In this document: in pieces, positions 1,233 through 17,783 of the stretch | How the letters are laid out: every line of letters starts with the position of its first letter | Position numbering within the stretch: the first letter of the stretch is position 1 | From: a virus | Length of the DNA: 28,222 bases | Virus record (IMG/VR): IMGVR_UViG_3300025037_000003 | Coordinates: 1-28,222 of that record | Strand: one strand, 5' to 3' | Notes under the pieces: model-generated | Told to the model about the DNA's origin: nothing | Database searches by the model: none | The model's input: the letters and a program-made list of their open reading frames with translations, nothing else | Made by a program: the position numbers and the translations under genes

Positions 1233-1928
1233 TCACTCTCCTTTGCTTAAAAACGGCGTCAAATCAGGCTCACTATAACTCTCAGGCTTTATAATCTTGC
1301 CGTTCTCGTCAAAGGTAAACTTGCCCTTTACCATCTTGCTATTATTCGAGCGTATGACCTCTTTTAATGCGCCCTCAATATCAAAGCCCATCATATAAGC
1401 CACACCAGTAGCGGTTACGATTTGGTCGCAAAGGCTGTCTAGTAGCTCCAATTCGTCAACGCAACTCAGGTTTAATTGAGCAGCAACATCGCTCTTTATT
1501 CCCTTGTAGTGTTCTGCGCTGTCCGCATTGTGCTCGCCATTATTGGATAAAGCGGCATCCATCTCATCAATCTCTTCATAATGGCAGCCAATTTGAGTGC
1601 AAATGTCTCTGTCAGTCGGCTCAGGCTTCGCAGCTTTAAACCAGTTTGCAATATCAGTTATAGAGTCAGGCTTGATATACGGCTGCATACTCCGCTGATA
1701 ATGCGCCCATGCTTCATCTTGAGCATCTTTTGCACTTGTAAAGCCAGTCATAATTTCAGACTTTTTATAAGAGTCGGTCAGGCGTGTTTTTTTAATCTCA
1801 AACTTGCCTCGCTTTGGCTCTGTTATTTCATACTCGTGTAATGCGCTGTATGCTGTTAGGTGTAGCTCAGCAAGTGGGTTTAGGTCTTTTTGCGTCCACT
1901 TTAGCGGCTTTAACGGTAAATTATTCAT
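1233..1928 (-). CDS. MazG-like/PRA-PH-type pyrophosphohydrolase with N-terminal accessory module
   Basis: A 231-aa protein in two parts. Residues 90-200 look like an all-alpha NTP pyrophosphatase: acidic residues E118, E119 and E122 on one helix and D164 and D168 on a later one, the spacing used to bind Mg2+ and triphosphate, followed by ATGVAYMMGFDIEGAL. Such enzymes hydrolyse (d)NTPs to monophosphates; the substrate here is unknown. Residues 10-82 form a separate module resembling the whole neighbouring 69-aa protein. It is coupled to that gene by an overlapping start and lies with other nucleotide and DNA metabolism genes. Confidence 0.7.
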   Translation of the reverse strand: MNNLPLKPLKWTQKDLNPLAELHLTAYSALHEYEITEPKRGKFEIKKTRLTDSYKKSEIMTGFTSAKDAQDEAWAHYQRSMQPYIKPDSITDIANWFKAAKPEPTDRDICTQIGCHYEEIDEMDAALSNNGEHNADSAEHYKGIKSDVAAQLNLSCVDELELLDSLCDQIVTATGVAYMMGFDIEGALKEVIRSNNSKMVKGKFTFDENGKIIKPESYSEPDLTPFLSKGE

Positions 1929-2130
1929 CGTTTTCTCCGTATTTATTATGATAGTTTTGTGCCCATTGCTTAGCAGCTTCTACGCTGTCAAAATCGCTTG
2001 ATACAAAAGCAGGGTTGTCACCAATTTTGCTATATATCACGCGGCTGTTATTGCCGATTGTCTCGACACGGTACGTATGCGACCGAGTGTTTGCGACATC
2101 GTTTGTCGTCCATTCTAAGTTTTTAGTCAT
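1921..2130 (-). CDS. hypothetical phage protein (69 aa)
   Basis: I start it at the ATG 2130-2128, preceded by AAAGGACG; the longer in-frame extension has no ribosome site. The protein runs LEWTTND, a Y-x-V strand pair, then FDSVEAAKQWAQNYH. The same order (L-x-W-T-x-x-D, strand, F-x-S-x-x-x-A helix) appears in the N-terminal module of the downstream MazG-like protein, suggesting tandem copies of one small domain. Function unknown. Confidence 0.65.
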   Translation of the reverse strand: MTKNLEWTTNDVANTRSHTYRVETIGNNSRVIYSKIGDNPAFVSSDFDSVEAAKQWAQNYHNKYGENDE

Positions 2131-2282
2131 AGTTGACGTCCTTTTAAAATAGGGTGGCTCGTATCGTGAGCCAGTCGGCTTTGCCTCGACTGCGCTTTCA
2201 ACGCACATGCTAAGCACGTAAGGAATTGTCAGTCTCTGCTGCTAGTAGTTAATCGCCACCATCTAGCTATGCGCGTCTCATA
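2131..2282 (-). other. 152-nt untranslated gap in the leftward operon
   Basis: No supported gene. Read leftward it contains a small hairpin (GGCTC-7 nt-GAGCC, 2175-2159) shortly before the ribosome site of the 69-aa gene. It could tune translation or hold a secondary promoter, but I see no good -35/-10 pair. Confidence 0.35.
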
Positions 2283-2507
2283 TTAGCCCCTGAGCTGGGT
2301 ATAACTGGTTGTTTTAAGTTGGTACGTGTATTCGTTCGCATAGTAGTGGTCACTTGCTTCTACTATCTCAGCGTCCATTAACTGCTTGATATGTCTTTGT
2401 ATCGTCCGTTTGTGCATCTTGGTTCTTTCGTGCAGCTGTCTAACGGATAACGGCTTAGCACAGTCAATGAACGCCTTTGTGGTAGTTAGAACTGTGGATT
2501 TTGTCAT
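2283..2507 (-). CDS. winged-helix DNA-binding protein (74 aa)
   Basis: A 74-aa protein that is almost entirely one winged HTH: helix 1 (TTTKAFIDCA), helix 2 (SVRQLHERT), recognition helix (HKRTIQRHIKQLMDAEIV), then a beta wing (YYANEYTYQL). This resembles the small MarR/IclR-type HTH modules of phages. It may regulate the leftward operon or assist recombination. A TGAGG site lies eight bases before the ATG. The gene begins 10 bases after the stop of the exonuclease gene. Confidence 0.7.
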   Translation of the reverse strand: MTKSTVLTTTKAFIDCAKPLSVRQLHERTKMHKRTIQRHIKQLMDAEIVEASDHYYANEYTYQLKTTSYTQLRG

Positions 2508-2517
2508 GGCTTAGACC

Positions 2518-3156
2518 TCAGCTAGATATCTCTTTAAGTAATTCGTTGTAGTAGTCCCGCGACATTTCGACACGTTCCTTTGCTTGCTCAATTAGCGACT
2601 CGTCGTACTCAATCTTGACCGACCTAATGCGCTTTTGTAGCGGTATTCGATTGACCAGATCAACGTGCTCATACTCGTCATCGTTATAGCCAAGCAAGCT
2701 ATGAGGGGTGGGTAGCAGAACAAAGTCCACGTAATGCACCTTTTTACCCCATAGCTCCATATAGACCTGACCTTGCCAATCGTAACCCCCGTCTTTAACT
2801 TTTTGCACAGCGTCGTCATGTGTCCATGGGAAGCTATCAATCGACCATGAGCACTTGGTGTCTCTTATGCTATCGTCAGTCAGCAAGTCACATTCACCGC
2901 TAAACCAATCGTTACTTTTGCGCTCAGTGTTCTTAGTGAGCTTGACAGCTTTTAGCAGACTGATAGCTTTGATTGCGTCATCTTCGAGCATCAAACCCTT
3001 GTTAATCATCTTTGCGTCAATCTCGCGACGATAATCAAACACATCAAGCAAAACAGCATTGAGTACCACTTTTTTTGATGTTTTACCGAGCGTGGTCTTG
3101 TTCTGTAAGCGCGTCATCAATCCACCTAACGCGCTTGCTCTGCATTTGAAAGTCAT
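2518..3156 (-). CDS. YqaJ-like phage recombination exonuclease
   Basis: A 212-aa PDDEXK-type nuclease. The catalytic core is visible as GECDLL (about residues 87-92) followed by DTKCS, the D-x(n)-(D/E)-x-K pattern, then a Q-x-x-x-Y helix (WQGQVYMEL) typical of YqaJ/lambda-exonuclease-like enzymes. It should resect double-stranded ends to give 3' single strands for the RecT annealase encoded immediately upstream, whose stop overlaps its start by four bases. That pairing is the best evidence for the call. The second acidic residue is Asp instead of the usual Glu. Confidence 0.85.
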   Translation of the reverse strand: MTFKCRASALGGLMTRLQNKTTLGKTSKKVVLNAVLLDVFDYRREIDAKMINKGLMLEDDAIKAISLLKAVKLTKNTERKSNDWFSGECDLLTDDSIRDTKCSWSIDSFPWTHDDAVQKVKDGGYDWQGQVYMELWGKKVHYVDFVLLPTPHSLLGYNDDEYEHVDLVNRIPLQKRIRSVKIEYDESLIEQAKERVEMSRDYYNELLKEISS

Positions 3157-4013
3157 GATGCCGCTAACTCCTGTCTTTGTTGGTCGCTAATGATGTAACC
3201 AGCTTGACCGCTTAACACTTGCGCCTTGTCAAGATTGCCGTTTTGCACCGATGTTTTTACATCATTGAACAACTCAGGATTATTACTAATATCCATTTCA
3301 ATAGCGGCCTGCTGTGGTTGATTGTCGGCATACTCATAAGACGGCTGACCATTCACATCACGTATGATTGCTTGGTCTGCTTGTACCGCATCAGCCAGTG
3401 TAGGCACGATAGATAGTGGCGCTTGCTTGCTCAGTAGTAGCTTTAATACTGTTTTTTGAGCCATAGCCTCAAAGTTATCCTTCCAAACGCCATAGCCTTT
3501 TTTGAATGACTGGCTATACTGTCCGGCATGAGCCGCCATTTCTTTATTGGTCATCGCTAAATGAGCCTCAAAGCCGTTTAGTAATTGAAAGTAGGCGATA
3601 TAACCCGTGACTTCTCCCTTTGGTTCTTTAGGTAAAAATGCAGTTAGTCGCTCATAAACTGATTGCTCAGTGTCACCTGAATACGTTTTACAGGCATTGA
3701 TGCGCTTAAACTGACCGCTACGCTGTGCGAGCTGCACAAAGCCCTTGTAACCCATTTGAAAGCTAGCTTGACCTTTAAACGGTACGATATAAGCAAAGCC
3801 TAGATTGTCATTGATCGGCAAGTTAAGAGTGGCAGCCGTGACCACCGCGCCAAAAATACTTTCAGGTGATGCGTTTTGCAGCGCCTTGTTGCCGTTGACC
3901 ACTTGCAAGGCGCTTGTTAAAAATACGTCTTTGCGTTCGCCAAGTAATTCTTCTAACTTGCGCTGTACGCCTTGACCATTCATATATGCTTTAATTGCTA
4001 CTGCGTTACTCAT
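3153..4013 (-). CDS. recT: RecT-family single-strand annealing protein
   Basis: A 286-aa RecT family member at normal length. Recognisable blocks are AVVTAATLNLPINDNLG, a conserved aromatic and glycine-rich stretch (FQMGYKGFVQLAQRSGQF), and the YGVWKDNFEAMAQKTVLK segment. RecT binds single-stranded DNA and anneals complementary strands during phage recombination and replication repair. It is translationally coupled (ATGA overlap) to the YqaJ-like exonuclease. The last 70 residues are low-complexity and Gln-rich, as is common for a RecT C-terminal tail. Confidence 0.95.
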   Translation of the reverse strand: MSNAVAIKAYMNGQGVQRKLEELLGERKDVFLTSALQVVNGNKALQNASPESIFGAVVTAATLNLPINDNLGFAYIVPFKGQASFQMGYKGFVQLAQRSGQFKRINACKTYSGDTEQSVYERLTAFLPKEPKGEVTGYIAYFQLLNGFEAHLAMTNKEMAAHAGQYSQSFKKGYGVWKDNFEAMAQKTVLKLLLSKQAPLSIVPTLADAVQADQAIIRDVNGQPSYEYADNQPQQAAIEMDISNNPELFNDVKTSVQNGNLDKAQVLSGQAGYIISDQQRQELAAS

Positions 4014-4017
4014 AATC

Positions 4018-4164
4018 TTATCCTTTTATCCGTTTTAGCGACTCATTTGCCGCTTTGATTGTTTTGTATTGCTCTGACTCGTAGTAGCTGTCGGTGGCTA
4101 GTGCCTGATGCGTAACAAACGCACCAAGACCAGCCCAAACCGCGATAAAAATGATTTGTTTCAT
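4018..4164 (-). CDS. small exported or membrane-anchored protein (48 aa)
   Basis: A 48-aa frame: lysine at residue 3, a hydrophobic stretch IIFIAVWAGLGAFV, then ALA at residues 21-23 that fits signal peptidase cleavage, leaving a charged 25-aa tail. Its ATG overlaps the stop of the 64-aa gene upstream by four bases, and its 3' end holds the AAAGGA ribosome site of recT. No family is recognised. It may equally be a single-pass inner-membrane peptide. Confidence 0.6.
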   Translation of the reverse strand: MKQIIFIAVWAGLGAFVTHQALATDSYYESEQYKTIKAANESLKRIKG

Positions 4165-4355
4165 GGCAGCACCTCACTAACTTCGGTTAATAAAGACTCT
4201 TTGCCGCCTGCATAAGCCAGGGCACTTTCCTTGTCCTCAAACACTGGTATAGCGCCAACCATTCCATCAGCCCAATTCAGCTCCATTGGTCTCTCAAGAC
4301 CCATAACATCAATTGTTATATCGGTTTTCAGTGTGTTTACTGCGTACATGCTCAT
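4161..4355 (-). CDS. hypothetical protein (64 aa)
   Basis: A 64-aa acidic protein with no recognised domain. The C-terminal half (FEDKESALAYAGGKES) looks like a strand-helix unit. An AAGGAG site precedes the ATG at 4355; a second ATG two codons in is possible. It overlaps both neighbours by four bases, so it is certainly part of the polycistron. Function unknown. Confidence 0.6.
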   Translation of the reverse strand: MSMYAVNTLKTDITIDVMGLERPMELNWADGMVGAIPVFEDKESALAYAGGKESLLTEVSEVLP

Positions 4356-4510
4356 GCGCCTTCTCCTTCGACTTCAAAAACCGATACAAGGTCGAGCTGT
4401 CTTTTGTAGTGATTGGTCAGCACACTACGCGCTTGCATCTTAGTGTCAGCCTCTACGCGCTCAACCATCGTCACGCCTTCGATAACGTGTGTAATTTCAA
4501 ATGTTTTCAT
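4352..4510 (-). CDS. hypothetical protein (52 aa)
   Basis: Started at the ATG 4510-4508, where AAGGAG lies six bases upstream; a longer frame without a ribosome site is rejected. The 52-aa product (FEITHVIEGVTMVERVEADT, then a basic helix SVLTNHYKRQ) looks like a small alpha/beta protein. It overlaps the next gene by four bases. No family recognised. Confidence 0.6.
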   Translation of the reverse strand: MKTFEITHVIEGVTMVERVEADTKMQARSVLTNHYKRQLDLVSVFEVEGEGA

Positions 4511-4520
4511 GTCATGCTCC

Positions 4521-4877
4521 TTATGCTGCGTAGTGGTCGTATGCTGGTTTTTTGGTGGGCTGGATATACTCACAGATCACTTCTTTGATTAACTCAATGA
4601 TGATGGGCTTATCTGCCTCTGTTATCTCCGTGCTATCTAGCGCAAGATCATCATCTGTCTCAGGGTCGTAAGCCCGCGTGATTTGCAAGTTGCTCACGCT
4701 GTCAACCTCAATCCAACTGTCACCTTCAATCGCTACGTGACCGCCCCATATCTCGCCGCGCTCACCGTTCTCACTCCATTCGCAATCAAAACTAATCTCT
4801 AGCCCGATGCCGTCTTTGATGACGTAGATATAGTCGTCATCGCTATCTGCTTGCGTGTCTATCGTTATATGTGCCAT
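4521..4877 (-). CDS. hypothetical acidic protein (118 aa)
   Basis: Started at the ATG 4877-4875 with GGAG about 11 bases upstream; the longer in-frame extension would run through a hairpin. The 118-aa product is strongly acidic (DSDDDYIYV, DPETDDDLALD) and mostly beta, ending in a helix IIIELIKEVICEY. No family recognised. Highly acidic early phage proteins sometimes act as DNA mimics or inhibitors, but nothing here demonstrates that. Confidence 0.6.
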   Translation of the reverse strand: MAHITIDTQADSDDDYIYVIKDGIGLEISFDCEWSENGERGEIWGGHVAIEGDSWIEVDSVSNLQITRAYDPETDDDLALDSTEITEADKPIIIELIKEVICEYIQPTKKPAYDHYAA

Positions 4878-7230: not shown

Positions 7231-8193
7231 ATGTCAGACAGAGAAGTGCACTTTCCACCAATGAGCAGCTACCCAAAAAATAGCGATACAGCAATAGCCG
7301 TCGATGCAGTAGAAGCATGGCTCGACCAGTTTCCACACAAACGCGCCGAGAACAAACCAAACGGCGGCATCATTCGCAGCGTAGCGGACACCAGCGACTT
7401 GCGATTGCGCGAAATGTCACCGAGAGAGCGCAAGGTGGCACGCGCTAAAGCCCAGCGTGAGCATAAAGAAGCGCTGAAAAACCTAGCTAAAAAAGAGGCT
7501 CAGGACGCTAAGAAAATCGCCAAGCAGATAGCTATTTGGAAGCGAGAGCAGCGCACTAAATCAAAAGCCAGTGAGCAACCAAAGAAAGTTAAAAAGCATA
7601 ATTACCCATCAACTAGAAAACGTGCCAAGCATAAAGCTGGTCGAGCACTTCCGCAGATTCAGATTGAATCAAATATCAGACGCGACGAGCTAGCCAAGCA
7701 ATTAAAAGCAGGTCAGTTAATAGAGATGGCAGAAAGATCAGGTGGCACTGGCGCAGGTTGCTTGTATAGACAGCAAAAGTTTGACCTAAAGAAGTTAGCG
7801 CAAGCTGGTTTACAGACAGTAAGAATCGCGAGCGCGCTAAACAGGAAGTCTTATTTTGCTTTAAATCAATTTGAAGTCTATCAGTCAGACGTAAAGCTCA
7901 AGGGTAACTTTGATAGCAAGTCAAAGCGAGCAATGCAAGCAGCATTAGCAACTGGCCAGATGGTAGCAGCCGACCAATTCACCAACAGCACAAGATTGGT
8001 TGCAGCTTCAATGACACTCCTATCCAAGCTATTCAATCTTGATATTTACACGGTTTATGACAGCAAAACGATATTAGGCTGGATTTTGCTAGAGGATAAA
8101 TCAAAAGAGGTCGCTTACAAAGAGTTTGAAGCTATCGCGGCAGGGGTTGATGCAACGGTCAAGCAGGTAGTTGCTGCGGGCAACAGGCAATAA
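7231..8193 (+). CDS. unrecognised basic 320-aa protein
   Basis: A 320-aa protein between the CII-like gene and the replication initiator. Residues 60-150 are extremely Lys/Arg/Ala-rich (PRERKVARAKAQREHKEALK) and probably form a long charged coiled coil or nucleic-acid-binding arm. Residues 150-320 look globular, with LVAASMTLLSKLFNLDIYTVYD as the most hydrophobic part. I recognise no family. Its place suggests a role near replication or regulation, but this is position only. A GGAG site precedes the ATG. Confidence 0.7.
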   Translation: MSDREVHFPPMSSYPKNSDTAIAVDAVEAWLDQFPHKRAENKPNGGIIRSVADTSDLRLREMSPRERKVARAKAQREHKEALKNLAKKEAQDAKKIAKQIAIWKREQRTKSKASEQPKKVKKHNYPSTRKRAKHKAGRALPQIQIESNIRRDELAKQLKAGQLIEMAERSGGTGAGCLYRQQKFDLKKLAQAGLQTVRIASALNRKSYFALNQFEVYQSDVKLKGNFDSKSKRAMQAALATGQMVAADQFTNSTRLVAASMTLLSKLFNLDIYTVYDSKTILGWILLEDKSKEVAYKEFEAIAAGVDATVKQVVAAGNRQ

Positions 8194-8225
8194 AAAACGC
8201 CAATCAGGGCAAACTGATCAGCGTT
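8192..8225 (-). terminator. leftward intrinsic terminator before the O gene (tO-like)
   Basis: Read leftward, a 12-bp stem (8225-8214 with 8207-8196, two G-U pairs), a 6-nt loop and a T-run (8197-8192). It points against the surrounding rightward genes. On the plus strand the G-U pairs become mismatches and no T-run follows. It could end an OOP-like antisense transcript. Confidence 0.75.
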
Positions 8226-8260
8226 CAACAACTAAGCAAGCATAGGAGCTTACAAGGAGT

Positions 8261-8289
8261 ATTAAATCATGACCGATGACGAAAGGCAA
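8261..8289 (-). promoter_or_regulatory. possible leftward promoter (pO-like)
   Basis: On the minus strand TTGCCT, a 17-nt spacer and TTTAAT (8266-8261) form a fair sigma-70 match at the very start of the O-like gene. A start near 8254 with the terminator at 8225-8192 would give an RNA of about 60 nt. Untested; such matches also occur by chance. Confidence 0.4.
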
Positions 8290-9225
8290 GAGCTACTAAT
8301 GAATGACTTTGTAAGAGTGCCAAACATTATATTGCAGATGCAACGAGTGCTAAAGAATGGCAATACCTACGCTTGCCTTCAATTCATCTGGTGCAAGACT
8401 GGCGGTTGGGGGCGAAATGAGGACACCATCGCTTACTCGCAATTTATCAATGATAAACGTTATGGAACTGGCTTAGGCGAAAAAACGATACGCAGAGCTG
8501 TAGAAAAACTAGCTGATTTAGGTGTGATCACTATGTCGCCAAGCTTCAATAATATGCACGAGTTTTCCGTAAACGTAGAACGAATAAGAGAGTTGGTAGG
8601 TGATGAAGCATGGTCAAAAAGACCACCCTTAGAAGATACGAGCATGGTCAATTTGACCGAAAGTCCGGTCATTTTGACCGAAAGGGTGGTCAATTTGTCC
8701 GACAAGCATGGTCAATCTGACCACCACACTAGAACTACTACACAAGAACCTTTACACAAGAATACTAATACTTGTGATAGTGAGCCAGATGATCAGGAAA
8801 AACCAAAGAAAACAGCAAAAAGCAAAAAGGTTGATCAAACAACTGATCAAGCAAAAGCACTAATTGATTATTGGAACGACAATCATGGAAAAGGAGACAA
8901 GGCGAATGTAAAACACTCAGTTTGGATAGACACAGTTAAATCACGGTTAAAGACTTTTACCGAGGAAGAAATACGTACGGCAATGCAATCAGTCATCAAT
9001 AGCAACTGGCATCAACAAAACAAGCAAGTGCTGATCAAAAACGCTATCGACAGTAACAAGCGTTGTGAGCAAGCAATCAGCAAGTTTAATCAGACAGCCA
9101 CAGCAAAAACGATTGATCGTAGTACGGACAGACTCGCAGTAAACAACAACTGGGCAGGTGCTAACAAATCGAACATTGTAGCGCCCAACACAAATATCGA
9201 CGACATGTTAGGAGAGCCAACATGA
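8269..9225 (+). CDS. O-like replication initiator
   Basis: A 318-aa protein. Residues 10-110 form the winged-HTH domain of phage replication protein O-type initiators (FVRVPNIILQ, then a recognition region YGTGLGEKTIRRAVEKL). Residues about 115-152 are a linker encoded by five iterons. The C-terminal part, from about 195 to 280 (IDYWNDNH, NSNWHQQNKQVLIKNAID), should meet the helicase loader encoded next, whose ATG overlaps its stop by four bases. AAGGAG precedes the ATG. The layout copies lambda O: initiator, origin inside the gene, loader downstream. Confidence 0.88.
   Translation: MTDDERQELLMNDFVRVPNIILQMQRVLKNGNTYACLQFIWCKTGGWGRNEDTIAYSQFINDKRYGTGLGEKTIRRAVEKLADLGVITMSPSFNNMHEFSVNVERIRELVGDEAWSKRPPLEDTSMVNLTESPVILTERVVNLSDKHGQSDHHTRTTTQEPLHKNTNTCDSEPDDQEKPKKTAKSKKVDQTTDQAKALIDYWNDNHGKGDKANVKHSVWIDTVKSRLKTFTEEEIRTAMQSVINSNWHQQNKQVLIKNAIDSNKRCEQAISKFNQTATAKTIDRSTDRLAVNNNWAGANKSNIVAPNTNIDDMLGEPT
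8612..8722. repeat. iterons of the replication origin (five copies)
   Basis: Five 13-bp near-palindromes with consensus GGTCAATTTGACC at 8612-8624, 8646-8658, 8667-8679, 8688-8700 and 8710-8722. The last four repeat every 21-22 bp, two helical turns, so a bound dimer would sit on one face. A/T-richer DNA follows (8730-8780), a possible unwinding region. Iterons inside the initiator gene are the lambda-type origin design. Confidence 0.85.
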
Positions 9226-10079
9226 ATTTATCAGCAATGATTGAAAGCGGCATGGATTTTAGTCCAAAAGACGTGCAAGCGGAATGTGATCAACACGGAT
9301 TAACTGATCATTATCAAATAGCAGTTATGAATCCAGTCTGCAAGCAATGTGAAGCAGCACAAAAAGAAAAGGCAGCCAAAGAGAACGCCGATGCAATTTA
9401 CAAGAAATACAAATCCATCATGAAATCAAATGGCGTCAATCCAGACGGCAAGCGTTTTGACGAATGGCGCTTTGATCAAGATCAAGCAGAACGTCAGCAA
9501 AAGATTATCGACACACTTAAAAATATAGCATCAAAAATTAAGATTATCGGCATTGATGGTCGCAACGGCAAGCTACCAAACATCATGCTGGTGGGCGGTA
9601 CTGGGTCAGGAAAGACGATGTTAGCCAATGCTTTAGCTAAAGCGGTATATCGCAAAGCGGCCGCAATAGACGTAGATAAAAACACAGATGCTTATCAAGC
9701 TGGCAGATCATGCGCTCAACTGATCACATCAAGAGATATTACTGATCAAGCCAAGGCCACATGGGGCACTTATGGCGATAGTGAGCACCAACTGATAGAT
9801 CGATTGTCAAACATGGAGCTATTGATCATCGATGATTTGGGTGACAGTGATACCGCTAGCAATGAGGCTATGGCTGCAACTGATCGAGGTCGTGTTGGTC
9901 AGATTATCAACAAACGCTACCAAAAACGACCAACGGTGATCACCACTAACTTAACGCCTGATCAGGTCGTTGATCATCTAGGCGATAGGGCTTGGGATCG
10001 TCTGCAAGAGAATCTGATCATCATCCAATGCGACTGGCCTAGCTATCGTCAGTCAGTGGCTAAGGTGGCGTACCTATGA
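9222..10079 (+). CDS. DnaC-like helicase loader ATPase
   Basis: A 285-aa AAA+ ATPase of the DnaC/IstB type. The N-terminus has a likely zinc site (C22, H25 or H30, C40, C43). Walker A is GGTGSGKT at 125-132, Walker B LLIIDD at 200-205, and a sensor-1 like TTNL follows. It should load the host DnaB helicase at the origin in the preceding gene, like lambda P in role but DnaC-like in sequence. It is coupled to the O-like gene by an ATGA overlap. Confidence 0.92.
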   Translation: MNLSAMIESGMDFSPKDVQAECDQHGLTDHYQIAVMNPVCKQCEAAQKEKAAKENADAIYKKYKSIMKSNGVNPDGKRFDEWRFDQDQAERQQKIIDTLKNIASKIKIIGIDGRNGKLPNIMLVGGTGSGKTMLANALAKAVYRKAAAIDVDKNTDAYQAGRSCAQLITSRDITDQAKATWGTYGDSEHQLIDRLSNMELLIIDDLGDSDTASNEAMAATDRGRVGQIINKRYQKRPTVITTNLTPDQVVDHLGDRAWDRLQENLIIIQCDWPSYRQSVAKVAYL

Positions 10080-10267: not shown

Positions 10268-10725
10268 GCAGAAACAAAAAGACAGCAGCGCAAAAGAAGC
10301 GAGAAGCCCAAAAGCGTGACGCGCTAGCTAGGAAGGTTTATTTAGGACAAGCAGAGCCTGAGCCTGAGAAGTTTGAGCCAGTGTATGACGGCTATTTCAA
10401 GATATTCCTTCATGATGACGATTACAAAAGGGCGGCGGATAGAGCTGAGTTTACAGAGGATTGGCGGGCTAACCAAAAGCGCGGCGAGATCATGAGGCGC
10501 GAGCGTAAGTTTCAAGTAACGCTGCATATCATAGATACGGACGGATATAAGCGAGGACTAGAGGGAATGGTATTTACAGTCAAAGGTGGGCAGCGAGCAT
10601 TATCCAAGGTGATATTTGGTTTTGGTAATGGGTTTTGTGACGAGCTGCGAGCAAGGATTAAGAAAGAGTATGACGAAGATTTGAAAGTGGATTTGGTTAA
10701 CAGTTATGCGGTGGTTCGCGCATGA
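10264..10725 (+). CDS. hypothetical protein (153 aa)
   Basis: A 153-aa protein with a Lys/Arg-rich N-terminus (KKTAAQKKREAQKRDALARK) and a compact C-terminal half (FQVTLHIIDTDG, RALSKVIFGFGNGF). The basic arm suggests nucleic-acid contact. It overlaps both neighbours by four bases in the replication/nin-like operon. No family recognised. Confidence 0.65.
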   Translation: MSRNKKTAAQKKREAQKRDALARKVYLGQAEPEPEKFEPVYDGYFKIFLHDDDYKRAADRAEFTEDWRANQKRGEIMRRERKFQVTLHIIDTDGYKRGLEGMVFTVKGGQRALSKVIFGFGNGFCDELRARIKKEYDEDLKVDLVNSYAVVRA

Positions 10726-11950: not shown

Positions 11951-12286
11951 ATGATTGATTTTTTCATGTTCTCGTGGGGTGAAGTGCTGACAAGTTTGCG
12001 ATTTGTTTTCGTGTTGGTATTGGCTGTCGTTCTTTTGGTTTTAATAGCGGCTTTTTTGGAAGCATCAAGAATAGCAGTATCTTACGGTAGGGTTTTTAAG
12101 CACGTAATAAAACCTTTGACGTATAAGGATTATTGGCCGTTTATCAAGCACTGCTACCGAGTGCCAAACGCTGGAATACAAACCACATGGAATGATGGTT
12201 CGTACTGGAAAGGTACTGAAAACTGGGCTTATTACGATAAGAAAAAGGGCGAATGGGTGAGAAGTAAAGGAGTAACCAATGATTAG
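11951..12286 (+). CDS. membrane-anchored hypothetical protein (111 aa)
   Basis: A 111-aa protein started at the ATG 11951 (GGTGG upstream); an in-frame GTG three codons earlier is possible. One long hydrophobic helix (residues about 12-38, FVFVLVLAVVLLVLIAAFL) anchors a cytoplasmic or periplasmic tail rich in Tyr and Trp (YWPFIKHCYRV, WAYYDKKKGEW). No family recognised. Confidence 0.6.
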   Translation: MIDFFMFSWGEVLTSLRFVFVLVLAVVLLVLIAAFLEASRIAVSYGRVFKHVIKPLTYKDYWPFIKHCYRVPNAGIQTTWNDGSYWKGTENWAYYDKKKGEWVRSKGVTND

Positions 12287-12440
12287 CAAAGACAAGATTT
12301 GGGTCAACAAAGAAACAAGGCAGTCGGTGTTGGTTTTGTATGTGAGTAATGAGCTGGTGACGTACCAAGCAGCAGATAGTCAGACACCAATGCCAGTGCG
12401 TAAGTTTATCTTTTTGCAAGATTTTGAGGAGTTGTTATGA
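12279..12440 (+). CDS. small hypothetical protein (53 aa)
   Basis: A 53-aa frame starting 8 bases before the previous stop, with AAAGGAG upstream, and ending in an ATGA overlap with the next gene. It looks like a small beta-rich protein (SVLVLYVSNELVTYQ). No family recognised. Confidence 0.6.
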   Translation: MISKDKIWVNKETRQSVLVLYVSNELVTYQAADSQTPMPVRKFIFLQDFEELL

Positions 12441-12955
12441 GTGATATTGAGCTTCGTAGTGTTTGGATTAATAAAAAAGATACAAGAAAGCCGAGGGTTG
12501 CGAGTCGCTTGGTAGTGATTCACAACAAAGCAAAATCATCTTTTGGCGAGACTTGGACAGCGAGTTACTTCAAAGGCAGTTTTTTGGAAAAATTCAGCAC
12601 GATAACATCCGAAAAATTATTATCAGATTATCTCAAAACAGAGTCAAAGTGCATCAATGAGTATTTAGGTGATTTAATTAAAGGCCGCAAAGATGACAGT
12701 GCAAAGCGACGTTACAGCTTGCTACCAAAAGGCACGGTTAATAGCGTGGTCGATGTGTTGGAGTTTGGTTCAAAAAAATACGCAGACAACAACTGGCAAA
12801 AAGTGCCAAACGCAAAGACGCGCTACTACGATGCTGCATTACGGCACATCGACGCTTGGTTTGGTGGTGAGATTAAAGACAGCGAGACAGGTTTGCCGCA
12901 TTTAGCCCATGCGACTTGCTGCCTAATGTTTTTGATGTGGTTTGACAGTGAGTAA
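12437..12955 (+). CDS. dATP/dGTP diphosphohydrolase-like protein (DUF5664/MazZ type)
   Basis: A 172-aa protein. Residues 90-172 fit the dATP/dGTP diphosphohydrolase domain (RRYSLLPKGTVNSVVDVLEFGSKKY is its opening, written here in two halves: RRYSLLPKG and VVDVLEFGSKKY), with NNWQKV, RYYDAALRHIDAWFGGE and GLPHLAHATCC following. These supply the acidic and His residues of the MazG-like fold. Relatives trim purine dNTPs, and in Z-genome phages they support 2-aminoadenine; no PurZ is seen here. The N-terminal 90 residues look like a separate module. Confidence 0.8.
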   Translation: MSDIELRSVWINKKDTRKPRVASRLVVIHNKAKSSFGETWTASYFKGSFLEKFSTITSEKLLSDYLKTESKCINEYLGDLIKGRKDDSAKRRYSLLPKGTVNSVVDVLEFGSKKYADNNWQKVPNAKTRYYDAALRHIDAWFGGEIKDSETGLPHLAHATCCLMFLMWFDSE

Positions 12956-13244
12956 GCGCGATAACGACAGGCTAAAAGCCATTCGTAAGATGATTTGCTG
13001 TGAGTGCGGCGCTGATGCACCAAATCAAGCCGCTCATAGCAACTTTGGCATACATGGTAAGGGCAAGGGGGTTAAGGCAGATGACTGCTATACAATCCCT
13101 TTGTGTTATTCATGCCATGCCGATTTAGATCAGAACTTATCACAGCAGACAAGGCAGCAGCAGATGGATTGGTTTAATCGCAAACTTAAATTTATCAACG
13201 AGGTATTGGATGACCAAGAAAAAGGCGAAACCTCAGTATTTTAG
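12948..13244 (+). CDS. YbcO-like (DUF1364) nuclease
   Basis: A 98-aa protein started at the GTG 12948. Cysteines near residues 17-20 (CCEC), AAHSNFG with His30, and LCYSCHADLDQ (C53, C56, H57) match the treble-clef, HNH-like layout of YbcO/DUF1364 proteins, which lambdoid phages keep in the nin region. DNase activity is inferred from family. It overlaps the NinB gene by 35 bases. Confidence 0.8.
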   Translation: MSKRDNDRLKAIRKMICCECGADAPNQAAHSNFGIHGKGKGVKADDCYTIPLCYSCHADLDQNLSQQTRQQQMDWFNRKLKFINEVLDDQEKGETSVF

Positions 13245-13698
13245 ATTAACAAGCGAGGCGGTACGCGATAACTGCGTCAAAGCCTTGTTTTTAGCGCATC
13301 AGAGCAGCGATGAGGTGCTAGAGGTAGTAATTCAACCTGAGAGCCGTAAGCGGTCACTGGCGCAGAATAGGCTCTACTGGATGTGGGTAACACAGGCGGC
13401 TGATGAGTGGGGTGATGCCAAGGAAGGCGTGCATTACGATTTTAAGAGGCGGTTTTTACTCAAGATTTACTACAGAGATAGTCTGTCGTTTGCTGCAATG
13501 TGCGATTCAATTAAGGCGCTACAAGGTTTGGACTTGCAGCATTACGACATGATAGCAAAAGAGGTGGTCAGTCTGGTGAGCACGACCAAGGCTAACGACA
13601 AGCAGATGGGTGAGTATTTAGATGACATTTACAGGTTTTGCTACACGCAAGGTTTGTTTTTGTTGACACCGGATGATTTGGCATGGGTGAGGGATTGA
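13210..13698 (+). CDS. ninB: NinB-like recombination protein
   Basis: A 162-aa protein carrying the NinB hallmark RSLAQNRLYW (about residues 48-57), followed by the conserved helical domain with FKRRFLL. In lambda NinB (Orf) binds single-stranded DNA and acts as a recombination mediator, replacing RecFOR. Here it sits with HNH, VRR-NUC and YbcO-like nucleases, just before the Q-like gene, which is the lambda order. Confidence 0.88.
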   Translation: MTKKKAKPQYFRLTSEAVRDNCVKALFLAHQSSDEVLEVVIQPESRKRSLAQNRLYWMWVTQAADEWGDAKEGVHYDFKRRFLLKIYYRDSLSFAAMCDSIKALQGLDLQHYDMIAKEVVSLVSTTKANDKQMGEYLDDIYRFCYTQGLFLLTPDDLAWVRD

Positions 13699-14099
13699 TG
13701 GATATTAAAGATAAACTAGCAGCGTGGGGCGCATGGAGTCGGTCAGATAGCAGTGGGCTAGGGTATATAAGCCCTTGTTTGCTCATGATGCGCGGTAACG
13801 TAGCAGAGACACGCAGAGCGCCGAGAGCGCACTATATCAGCGATGACGATGCAATGTTAGTCGGTGCTGCTATAACGGCGCTCAGACGTGATTACGAGGT
13901 GCTAGCAGAGATGGTAATACGCAAATACTACCGATGCTGGACAGCTAAAGAGATTGCCCAGCACTATCTGACGGACATCGAATATCCACGGCTGGCGCAT
14001 TTAGATTGGGAGCATGAGGATAAAAAGCGGTCAGATCATCGTCATGTCGGACTCATGCTAAAACAGGCTGAGCGCATGATTGAGCAGTATTTAGCGTAA
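13698..14099 (+). CDS. Q-like late antiterminator
   Basis: A 133-aa protein starting at the ATG that overlaps the ninB stop. It opens with DIKDKLAAWGAWSR and has a central HTH-like part (WTAKEIAQHY), matching the antitermination Q family of lambdoid phages (short type). It should load onto RNA polymerase at a late promoter downstream and let it pass terminators. A terminator and then a strong promoter lie right after it, and several terminators punctuate the late genes. Confidence 0.82.
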   Translation: MDIKDKLAAWGAWSRSDSSGLGYISPCLLMMRGNVAETRRAPRAHYISDDDAMLVGAAITALRRDYEVLAEMVIRKYYRCWTAKEIAQHYLTDIEYPRLAHLDWEHEDKKRSDHRHVGLMLKQAERMIEQYLA

Positions 14100-14743: not shown

Positions 14744-15277
14744 ATGGATATAAAACAGTTAGAGCAAGCAGGTCGCTTGCTATACGGCGACCAATGGCAA
14801 TCAAACATGGCACGAGATTTAAACATTGATAGCCGCCGTGTAAGGCAGTGGATGAGCGGTGATCGCCAAATATCCGGCTGGGTTGCAACAGAGGTCAGTG
14901 CGTTACTAGATAAAAAGCAATTTAATATAAACCAGTTTTTAAAAACGATCAACAAGGATAACGACATGACAAACTTTATAAATAGATTGCAACCAAACAA
15001 AGCTATGATTAACAAAGTGGCTCAAAACCCAAACAGCGCCAAAGTTGCTGAGGCGGTGCAAGCGCAGTTAAAAAGCATTGTAATGGCTGTTTATAAAAAC
15101 AATCTGTTTAAGATAGCGGGTATAGATGCAGACGGTAAAAAACTCATTGAGTTTACCGCAGTAAAAGGCGATGAGGGGCTGGTGTTTTGGTTTGGTGATG
15201 ACTGGCGCAGCAAGGTAACACGCATTGAGCGCATTGGCGATGCTGACGAGTTGCTAAGCATTGATGATGTCGCTTAA
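14744..15277 (+). CDS. HTH-containing protein (177 aa)
   Basis: A 177-aa protein. Residues 10-55 form the common phage HTH that begins LYGDQWQSNMARDL and continues DSRRVRQWMSGDR. Residues 75-177 form a separate domain (FKIAGIDADGKKLIEFTAV, FWFGDDWRSKV) that I do not recognise. It follows the 166-aa gene by 8 bases. It could regulate its own promoter at 14151, whose spacer holds an inverted repeat. Confidence 0.72.
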   Translation: MDIKQLEQAGRLLYGDQWQSNMARDLNIDSRRVRQWMSGDRQISGWVATEVSALLDKKQFNINQFLKTINKDNDMTNFINRLQPNKAMINKVAQNPNSAKVAEAVQAQLKSIVMAVYKNNLFKIAGIDADGKKLIEFTAVKGDEGLVFWFGDDWRSKVTRIERIGDADELLSIDDVA

Positions 15278-15762
15278 TGCGCATGACGATTGAGCAATGG
15301 CAGGCGGTTGACTGGTCAAAGGACAACCGCCAGCTTGCGCAGGAGCTTGGTAAGACTTACGACACGGTAGCAAAAAAGCGATGGATGCTTAAAGCGGGTA
15401 AGGCTAATCAGCGTGCTACACGTAAAGACAAAGGCGTAAGCAAGACCACGTATTTGCCGAGCGCTGAGCAACAAGTCAAGGCTACTGCCGCCGCCAAAGC
15501 AAGCGAGCTGGGCGGACGCGGCGTAAGTAATACACATGCCAAAAGCTGGGTGTTAGTGTCACCCAGTGATGATATTTATCATGTTAAAAACCTGCATCAC
15601 TTTGTACGCAATAACGCGCATCTGTTTGACGCTGCTGATACAACGTGGCGGCGCATAGGCGGCAAGCGCGGCACAGGTGGCGAGTATTGCAATGCGACAG
15701 CAGGATTGTCTAACGTAAGGCAAGGTAAATCGAGCGCGTGGAAAGGTTGGCGGTTAAAATAA
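15277..15762 (+). CDS. putative DNA-binding protein (161 aa)
   Basis: A 161-aa basic protein whose ATG overlaps the preceding stop. Residues 5-40 look like an HTH (WSKDNRQLAQELGKTYDTVAKKR). The C-terminal 60 residues follow a pattern I associate with small DNA-binding modules of phage HNH/NUMOD-type proteins: W-x-L-x-SP, VKNLHHFVRNN, YCNATAGL, WKGW. No nuclease motif is visible. Function unknown; possibly a nuclease remnant or a regulator. Confidence 0.65.
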   Translation: MRMTIEQWQAVDWSKDNRQLAQELGKTYDTVAKKRWMLKAGKANQRATRKDKGVSKTTYLPSAEQQVKATAAAKASELGGRGVSNTHAKSWVLVSPSDDIYHVKNLHHFVRNNAHLFDAADTTWRRIGGKRGTGGEYCNATAGLSNVRQGKSSAWKGWRLK

Positions 15763-17300: not shown

Positions 17301-17783
17301 ATGAGCGACCTCACAAATGAGGCTAAAGCCTTTATTGTGCAAGGATTAGCCTCGTATATGACGCCCACAGAAGTGGTTAATGCTGTAAAAGAAGAGTTTG
17401 GTATTGAAGTATCTCGACAGACTGCATCAGCTTATGACCCAAACAAGGCTCAAGGCAAGGGACTGGCGCAAGAATGGCGAGACCTATTTGATGAGTGTCG
17501 TAAAAGATTTAATGAGAACCTATTGGATATTCCCATTGCTAATAAAGCCTATCGCTTAAATATGCTTGACCGTATGGCGCGTGATGCTGAGAAGTCAAAA
17601 AATAGACCATTAGCAGCAGCTTTGGCAGAACAGGCGGCTAAAGAAATGGGAGAGGTGTTTACCAATAAGCAGAAATTGGATCATCAGTCGAGTGACAAGA
17701 GCATGACGCCGACAATCAACAACTTCAACGGTGACGCTCAAGCAGCAAGCCAAGCCTATCAGGATATTATGGGTGGTAAATAA
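17301..17783 (+). CDS. terminase small subunit (DUF2280)
   Basis: A 160-aa protein. Residues 1-75 match DUF2280 small terminases: [33 protein letters not shown] (an HTH), [10 protein letters not shown]. The middle is helical (oligomerisation) and the tail Asn/Gln-rich. It should recognise the packaging site and deliver DNA to the large subunit, whose ATG overlaps its TAA by one base. Nearby DNA may hold the pac or cos site; none is recognisable. Confidence 0.88.

Follow-up and report, generated by a model that had tools for sequence, protein, structure and literature searches.

A 1.8-kb block of phage replication genes was found to carry 16 exact copies of the palindrome TGATCA, and the word occurs nowhere else in the 44.4-kb record that contains the block. 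The array is very likely real and selected at the DNA level, and from alignments with related phages it looks like a recently evolved product of such selection in one lineage. The best single reading, which we offer tentatively and by analogy with known systems, is that it is a TGATCA-specific protein-binding array acting on replication. The window (the whole stretch of DNA that was analyzed, 28,222 nucleotides) is the reverse complement of bases 16174 to 44395 of IMGVR_UViG_3300025038_000008, a parent record of 44,395 bases. The features in and around the array are as follows.

7231 to 8193, + strand: 320-amino-acid protein without assigned function, directly upstream of the block
8192 to 8225, + strand: intergenic hairpin 5' of the O gene, which holds site 8215
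8215 to 10020, unstranded: TGATCA array, 16 exact copies (exact-word count, whole 44.4-kb record)
8215, 8525, 8790, 8832, 8844, 9032, 9287, and 9305: first bases of the TGATCA sites, left part
9473, 9721, 9743, 9823, 9937, 9959, 9971, and 10015: first bases of the TGATCA sites, right part
8269 to 9225, + strand: O-like replication initiation protein (318 amino acids; phrog_678, phrog_18020, E 3e-8), five sites
8604 to 8722, + strand: putative lambda-type origin with five 21-nt iterons of the GGTCAATTTGACC type, within the O gene
8767 to 8823, unstranded: mosaic junction inside the O gene, with sequence 88% identical to the G067 prophage on the left and L186-like sequence on the right
8790 to 10020, unstranded: dense array core, 14 of the 16 sites in 1,231 bases (11.4 per kb)
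9222 to 10079, + strand: DnaC-like helicase loader (285 amino acids; phrog_50, E 1.5e-46; IstB PF01695, E 3e-13), ten sites

All 16 coordinates listed in the original prediction were exact, and no further TGATCA was found in the rest of the window or elsewhere in the 44.4-kb record. First-order expectation is 1.0 copy in the 1.9-kb block, where 16 were observed, and 10.6 copies in the other 42.5 kb, where none was. TGATCA reaches a density of 8.5 per kb in the block; the dense core spans the C-terminal half of O and the DnaC-like loader gene, and sites 8215 and 8525 are leftward outliers from it. Five sites lie in the O gene, ten lie in the loader gene, and one (8215) is intergenic. The sites within ORFs occupy two codon phases, six as xTG-ATC-Axx and nine as xxT-GAT-CAx, as had been claimed, and the GATC enrichment first put at about ninefold proved to be 9.6-fold (11.66 per kb within the block versus 1.22 per kb outside). 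The block also contains two copies of TGATCG. Helical phasing was not detected in the spacing of the TGATCA sites (maximum R of 0.56, under the null 95% value of 0.63).

The original prediction had placed the array in a replication block around a lambda-type origin, and this assignment held: the block is of the lambda type, with O and helicase-loader genes, and the O iterons were located at positions 8604 to 8722. The O-like protein also matched Phage_rep_O at an E value of 5e-4, under Pfam's cut-off. CI-like and Cro-like regulators and a CII-like protein are encoded upstream of the block; RecT, exonuclease, and terminase genes are found elsewhere in the record, with an integrase at its far end. 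The iterons in O are likely the phage origin and form an array separate from the TGATCA words; they are shared with Psychrobacter prophage DNA (G067 and L062), where they occur without TGATCA. The relatives of the phage point to Psychrobacter as the host genus.

Amino acid usage had been dismissed at the outset as an explanation for the cluster, and the codon-shuffled control that had been proposed was run on the O and loader genes. When proteins were kept fixed and synonymous codons were permuted (5,000 runs), 3.9 TGATCA words were expected (standard deviation, 1.6) and no run exceeded 10, compared with 15 observed in the two genes; a control based on phage-wide codon usage gave 2.7 expected words and a maximum of 9. 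Chance and codon use were rejected by these shuffles. Words with one mismatch to TGATCA were at expectation in the two genes (23 versus 22.2), and a degenerate motif of the transcription factor type was rejected because such near-miss words were not enriched. TGATCA accounted for 15 of the 21 coding GATCs, compared with 25% in permuted genes (P of about 1e-5), and GATC as the selected unit was rejected because this share is far above that of permuted genes. The lack of enrichment of near-miss words, together with the finding that 16 of the 22 GATCs in the block are TGATCA, indicates that the exact hexamer, rather than GATC, is the selected unit.

Host-like composition was rejected by whole-genome counts, as three Psychrobacter genomes contained 0.12 to 0.40 TGATCA per kb. 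A triple-site search of 105 Psychrobacter genomes revealed no comparable swarm (a maximum of seven copies per 1.8 kb around the retrieved matches), and at most four copies per 1.8 kb occurred in 312 kb of DNA from related phages and prophages. Outside the block, the phage avoids GATC: genes there contain 17 GATCs versus 43 expected, and none of the 48 GATCs outside the block is TGATCA (about 9% expected from relatives; P of about 0.01). Strong GATC avoidance was also observed in several Psychrobacter phages and prophages (L015, L063, L009, L011, and L186), with two GATCs in 12.3 kb of L015 and none in 3.9 kb of L063; this probably reflects restriction at GATC in the genus.

The closest relative of the array core, L186 (IMGVR 3300028498_000027), shares the C-terminal half of O, the loader (68% amino acid identity over the best-matching segment), and the two ORFs that follow; no TGATCA occurs in 14.8 kb of L186. 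Over 1,221 aligned nucleotides, TGATCA was gained 11 times and lost 0 times relative to L186, while the next palindrome was gained twice and no other palindrome was gained more than two times; the direction of change was taken from the agreement of several relatives. Five of the 11 gains are synonymous, and six change the residue. The starting words in L186 vary (TGATTA, TTATCA, TAATCA, TGATGA, TGAACA, AGAGCA, and others). Because many different substitutions are required to reach TGATCA from the ancestral words, a mutational bias such as very-short-patch repair was rejected. At least one aligned relative without the word was found for 15 of the 16 sites; the word is absent in the aligned relatives at sites 8215, 8525, 8832, and 8844, and site 8525 is missing from the 88%-identical prophage G067. 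At site 8215, CTGAAAGG of L186 has been replaced by CTGATCAG, and the common hairpin is thereby weakened from -16.2 to -12.4 kcal/mol; the more stable L186 hairpin contains no TGATCA.

The TGATCA cluster is absent from the homologous O and DnaC-loader genes of related phages. Because these homologues occur without it, the array is not a required part of this replication system and represents a lineage-specific addition. A search of phage, plasmid, and viral-contig collections for closer relatives with the array found none; one phage of this kind was found, with no close relative conserving the array. Two outcomes had been named as counting against the original prediction, and they came out differently: homologous genes in related phages do lack the cluster, whereas codon-shuffled genes do not give similar counts.

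The O gene is a mosaic, and its recombination junction is sharp and lies directly after the iterons. L186-like ancestry runs from the junction to about position 10700, at similar divergence past 10020, the position at which the array stops although the L186-type sequence goes on uninterrupted. An imported cassette was rejected because the end of the array is not at an ancestry boundary. That varied substitutions converge on one exact word argues for selection on the DNA rather than for mutation bias or import. A passive origin, whether by chance, by codon or amino acid preference, or by acquisition of a cassette from a genome rich in TGATCA, would accord with the mosaic structure of O and with the avoidance of GATC elsewhere in the phage. 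It is nevertheless highly improbable, given that neither codon control reached 15 sites, that both codon phases and a noncoding hairpin carry sites, that the array stops within continuous L186-type ancestry, and that none of the genomes or contigs examined has 8 to 11 TGATCA per kb throughout. Conflict with other genetic elements is a further possible source of the array, its sites serving as decoys or marks toward host restriction, modification, or defense or toward a satellite that targets replication genes. Exact-word specificity does resemble that of a restriction or modification enzyme, and GATC avoidance outside the block, where no GATC is TGATCA, fits such a conflict; we consider this origin improbable, however, as a phage should pay for added restriction targets in its essential genes, relatives under equal GATC avoidance lack the array, and we know of no cognate restriction, modification, or defense system for it. 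Confinement of the array to two cistrons and their leader would also suit an RNA-level element, in which a protein or small RNA would bind the UGAUCA words of the O-DnaC mRNA, but an exactly matched, perfect palindrome is typical of double-stranded DNA recognition, and an RNA-level role is highly improbable. Control of the Dam/SeqA type had been among the candidates first put forward. SeqA reads hemimethylated GATC, and clustered GATCs would keep the origin region hemimethylated and sequestered, in agreement with the 9.6-fold GATC density and with the position of the O iterons within the GATC-dense block. Selection acts on TGATCA and not on GATC, however, so that the flanks are not free as in a dense origin GATC cluster. 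SeqA was found in 0 of 105 genomes of Psychrobacter, the probable host genus, with E. coli as the positive control; D12 methyltransferases were patchy in the same genomes (21 of 105 over the cut-off), and no methyltransferase was recognized among the phage ORFs scanned. The Dam/SeqA proposal was thus not supported, and we give it very little probability.

The main rival, which we regard as unlikely, is a packaging signal in the form of an extended P1-pac-like array, for which the small terminase would be the reader and cleavage would be gated by methylation. When viral contigs were scanned blindly for close TGATCA triples, arrays among the matches listed were often in or near small-terminase genes, and P1-like pac sites in PacA-type genes were recovered. 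Among the matches listed, arrays were present in PacA-type phrog_1711 genes (L077, L097, L303, and L168), in other small-terminase genes of phrog_370 (L085 and L103) and phrog_51 (L161), and beside phrog_309 (L183); L185 was a weak case. The seven arrays that lie inside these small-terminase genes hold four to eight TGATCA copies each. The scan suggests a wide distribution of P1-type pac signals outside P1 itself. Some arrays among the matches listed were in unrelated genes such as tail fibers, and the pattern suggests that TGATCA has been used repeatedly as a phage protein-recognition site. Two loci with high counts (L133 and L086) were excluded, as they consist mostly of intergenic repeats at short spacing and of CTC-rich DNA of low complexity. 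L086 contains extreme CTC/GAG-rich, low-complexity coding DNA at positions 1550 to 4300, dense in GAGCTC and CTCGAG, and a noncoding GATC cluster at 1241 to 1420 precedes this stretch.

The scattered form had a sole counterpart among the matches listed, in two records that overlap at 99% identity.

L180 (IMGVR 3300031658_000381), 12001 to 13927, and L181 (IMGVR 3300031628_001013), 2633 to 4559: swarm of 22 TGATCA in 1.9 kb

This swarm has a density of 11.4 per kb, with a single further copy elsewhere in 14 kb. It borders a putative small-terminase gene, a call based on its position by a large-terminase-like ORF and on the look of its sequence, as no family matched. Sequence comparison indicates that the swarm is independent and belongs to an unrelated phage; a reader shared between the two phages was rejected, as they have no protein similarity. 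A location of this kind favors packaging, as do the arrays in small-terminase genes of other phages, and to that extent the packaging signal suggested in the original prediction gained ground. It lost ground on the present phage itself, in which the terminase genes begin at 17301, at a distance of about 7 kb from the array. Moreover, the small-terminase candidate is of a different family (DUF2280/phrog_546), its 69%-identical homologues (L020 to L022) occur in phages with zero to five dispersed TGATCA, and P1 pac is compact.

In this lineage, TGATCA has arisen again and again, through unrelated substitutions, in the O gene, the loader gene, and the leader before O. Under the preferred reading, a protein-binding array acting on replication, the sites would be docking points for a TGATCA-specific, probably dimeric protein. 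The most likely role of such a protein would be to govern the timing or frequency of firing at the phage origin in O, possibly through titration or bridging of an initiator. Alternatively, the origin might fire according to whether the GATC core is methylated, as for RctB at the Vibrio oriII 12-mers. Points against a binding array include the presence of separate iterons for O and the lack of helical phasing in the spacing of the sites.

None of the conserved phage proteins stands out as a reader of the array, because homologues occur in array-free relatives. This is true of CI (67%), Cro (56%), and the 320-amino-acid upstream protein (82% identical in G067), and likewise of O and the loader as well as of the small-terminase candidate (69%); conserved phage proteins were rejected as readers on this basis. 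The reader would be either a host factor, or the product of a phage gene without a homologue in the compared relatives, or a protein with diverged specificity. The phage proteins scanned included no relative of RctB or PacA. Two phage proteins, neither with a homologue among the compared relatives, may be considered as candidates.

14744 to 15277, + strand: gp14744, 177-amino-acid protein with a Cro/YdaS-like HTH start (PF15943, E 7e-4, weak and under the cut-off), one candidate reader of TGATCA
15277 to 15762, + strand: gp15277, 161-amino-acid protein with an HTH-like start, by eye, second candidate reader of TGATCA

The sole match to gp15277 in the phage collection was 52% identical and came from a record named Inovirus D_HF2_82, an unusual pattern of gene sharing.

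Many independent changes, some of them altering amino acids, have brought the word to 11 per kb in essential replication genes. Its presence in an otherwise GATC-avoiding phage group implies strong, recent selection for the DNA word by a reader. If this is true, the array would be an added control layer on lambda-type phage replication or a packaging signal located where none was expected; relatives without the sites can serve directly as controls.

The array does not belong with P1 pac, RctB sites, or Dam/SeqA origins, and by analogy it may work like P1 pac or RctB sites. P1 pac (PacA/PacB, Dam regulated) uses TGATCA/G repeats and, like the present array, has several copies of the TGATCA hexamer inside a phage coding gene (PMC10028697). 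It consists of seven repeats in about 161 bp inside the terminase gene, whereas this phage has 16 exact copies, plus the two of TGATCG, over 1.8 kb of the O and DnaC genes, far from its terminase genes, and no PacA-family match (phrog_1711/370) was found in the proteins scanned. TGATCA is also the essential inverted repeat of RctB 12-mers (PMC5395669), which are bound efficiently only when fully methylated (PMC2865523). The RctB 12-mer and 11-mer sites of Vibrio oriII are likewise several TGATCA-inverted-repeat sites in a replication origin region (PMC5395669, PMC2865523), and the array described here overlaps an O/loader block with iterons. RctB sites form a compact array of 12-mers, whereas here the bare hexamer is scattered through coding sequence over 1.8 kb, with no wider common word by eye, and the initiator is O-like (phrog_678), accompanied by a DnaC-like loader, rather than of the RctB family. 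The GATC cluster of E. coli oriC, bound by SeqA, is similar in its high GATC density in a replication origin block; it differs in that the flanks are fixed here (T..A) and in that SeqA is missing from the probable host genus. As in a lambda-type origin, direct repeats of about 20 nt (five 21-nt copies) lie inside O, but the iteron word GGTCAATTTGACC is not TGATCA, and relatives have iterons without the TGATCA array. The L180/L181 swarm shares irregular spacing across small genes and gaps and an equal density, and differs in lying beside a putative small-terminase gene and in consisting partly of CCTGATCACC tandem copies. Known TGATCA arrays (P1 pac and RctB sites) are compact and their reader comes along with them, whereas this array is dispersed. 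Such a dispersed exact-word swarm might, somewhat more tentatively than the binding array itself, be a new sort of cis-element, one that defies codon constraint, belongs to one lineage, and would be read by a protein, with the same word recruited independently in L180/L181.
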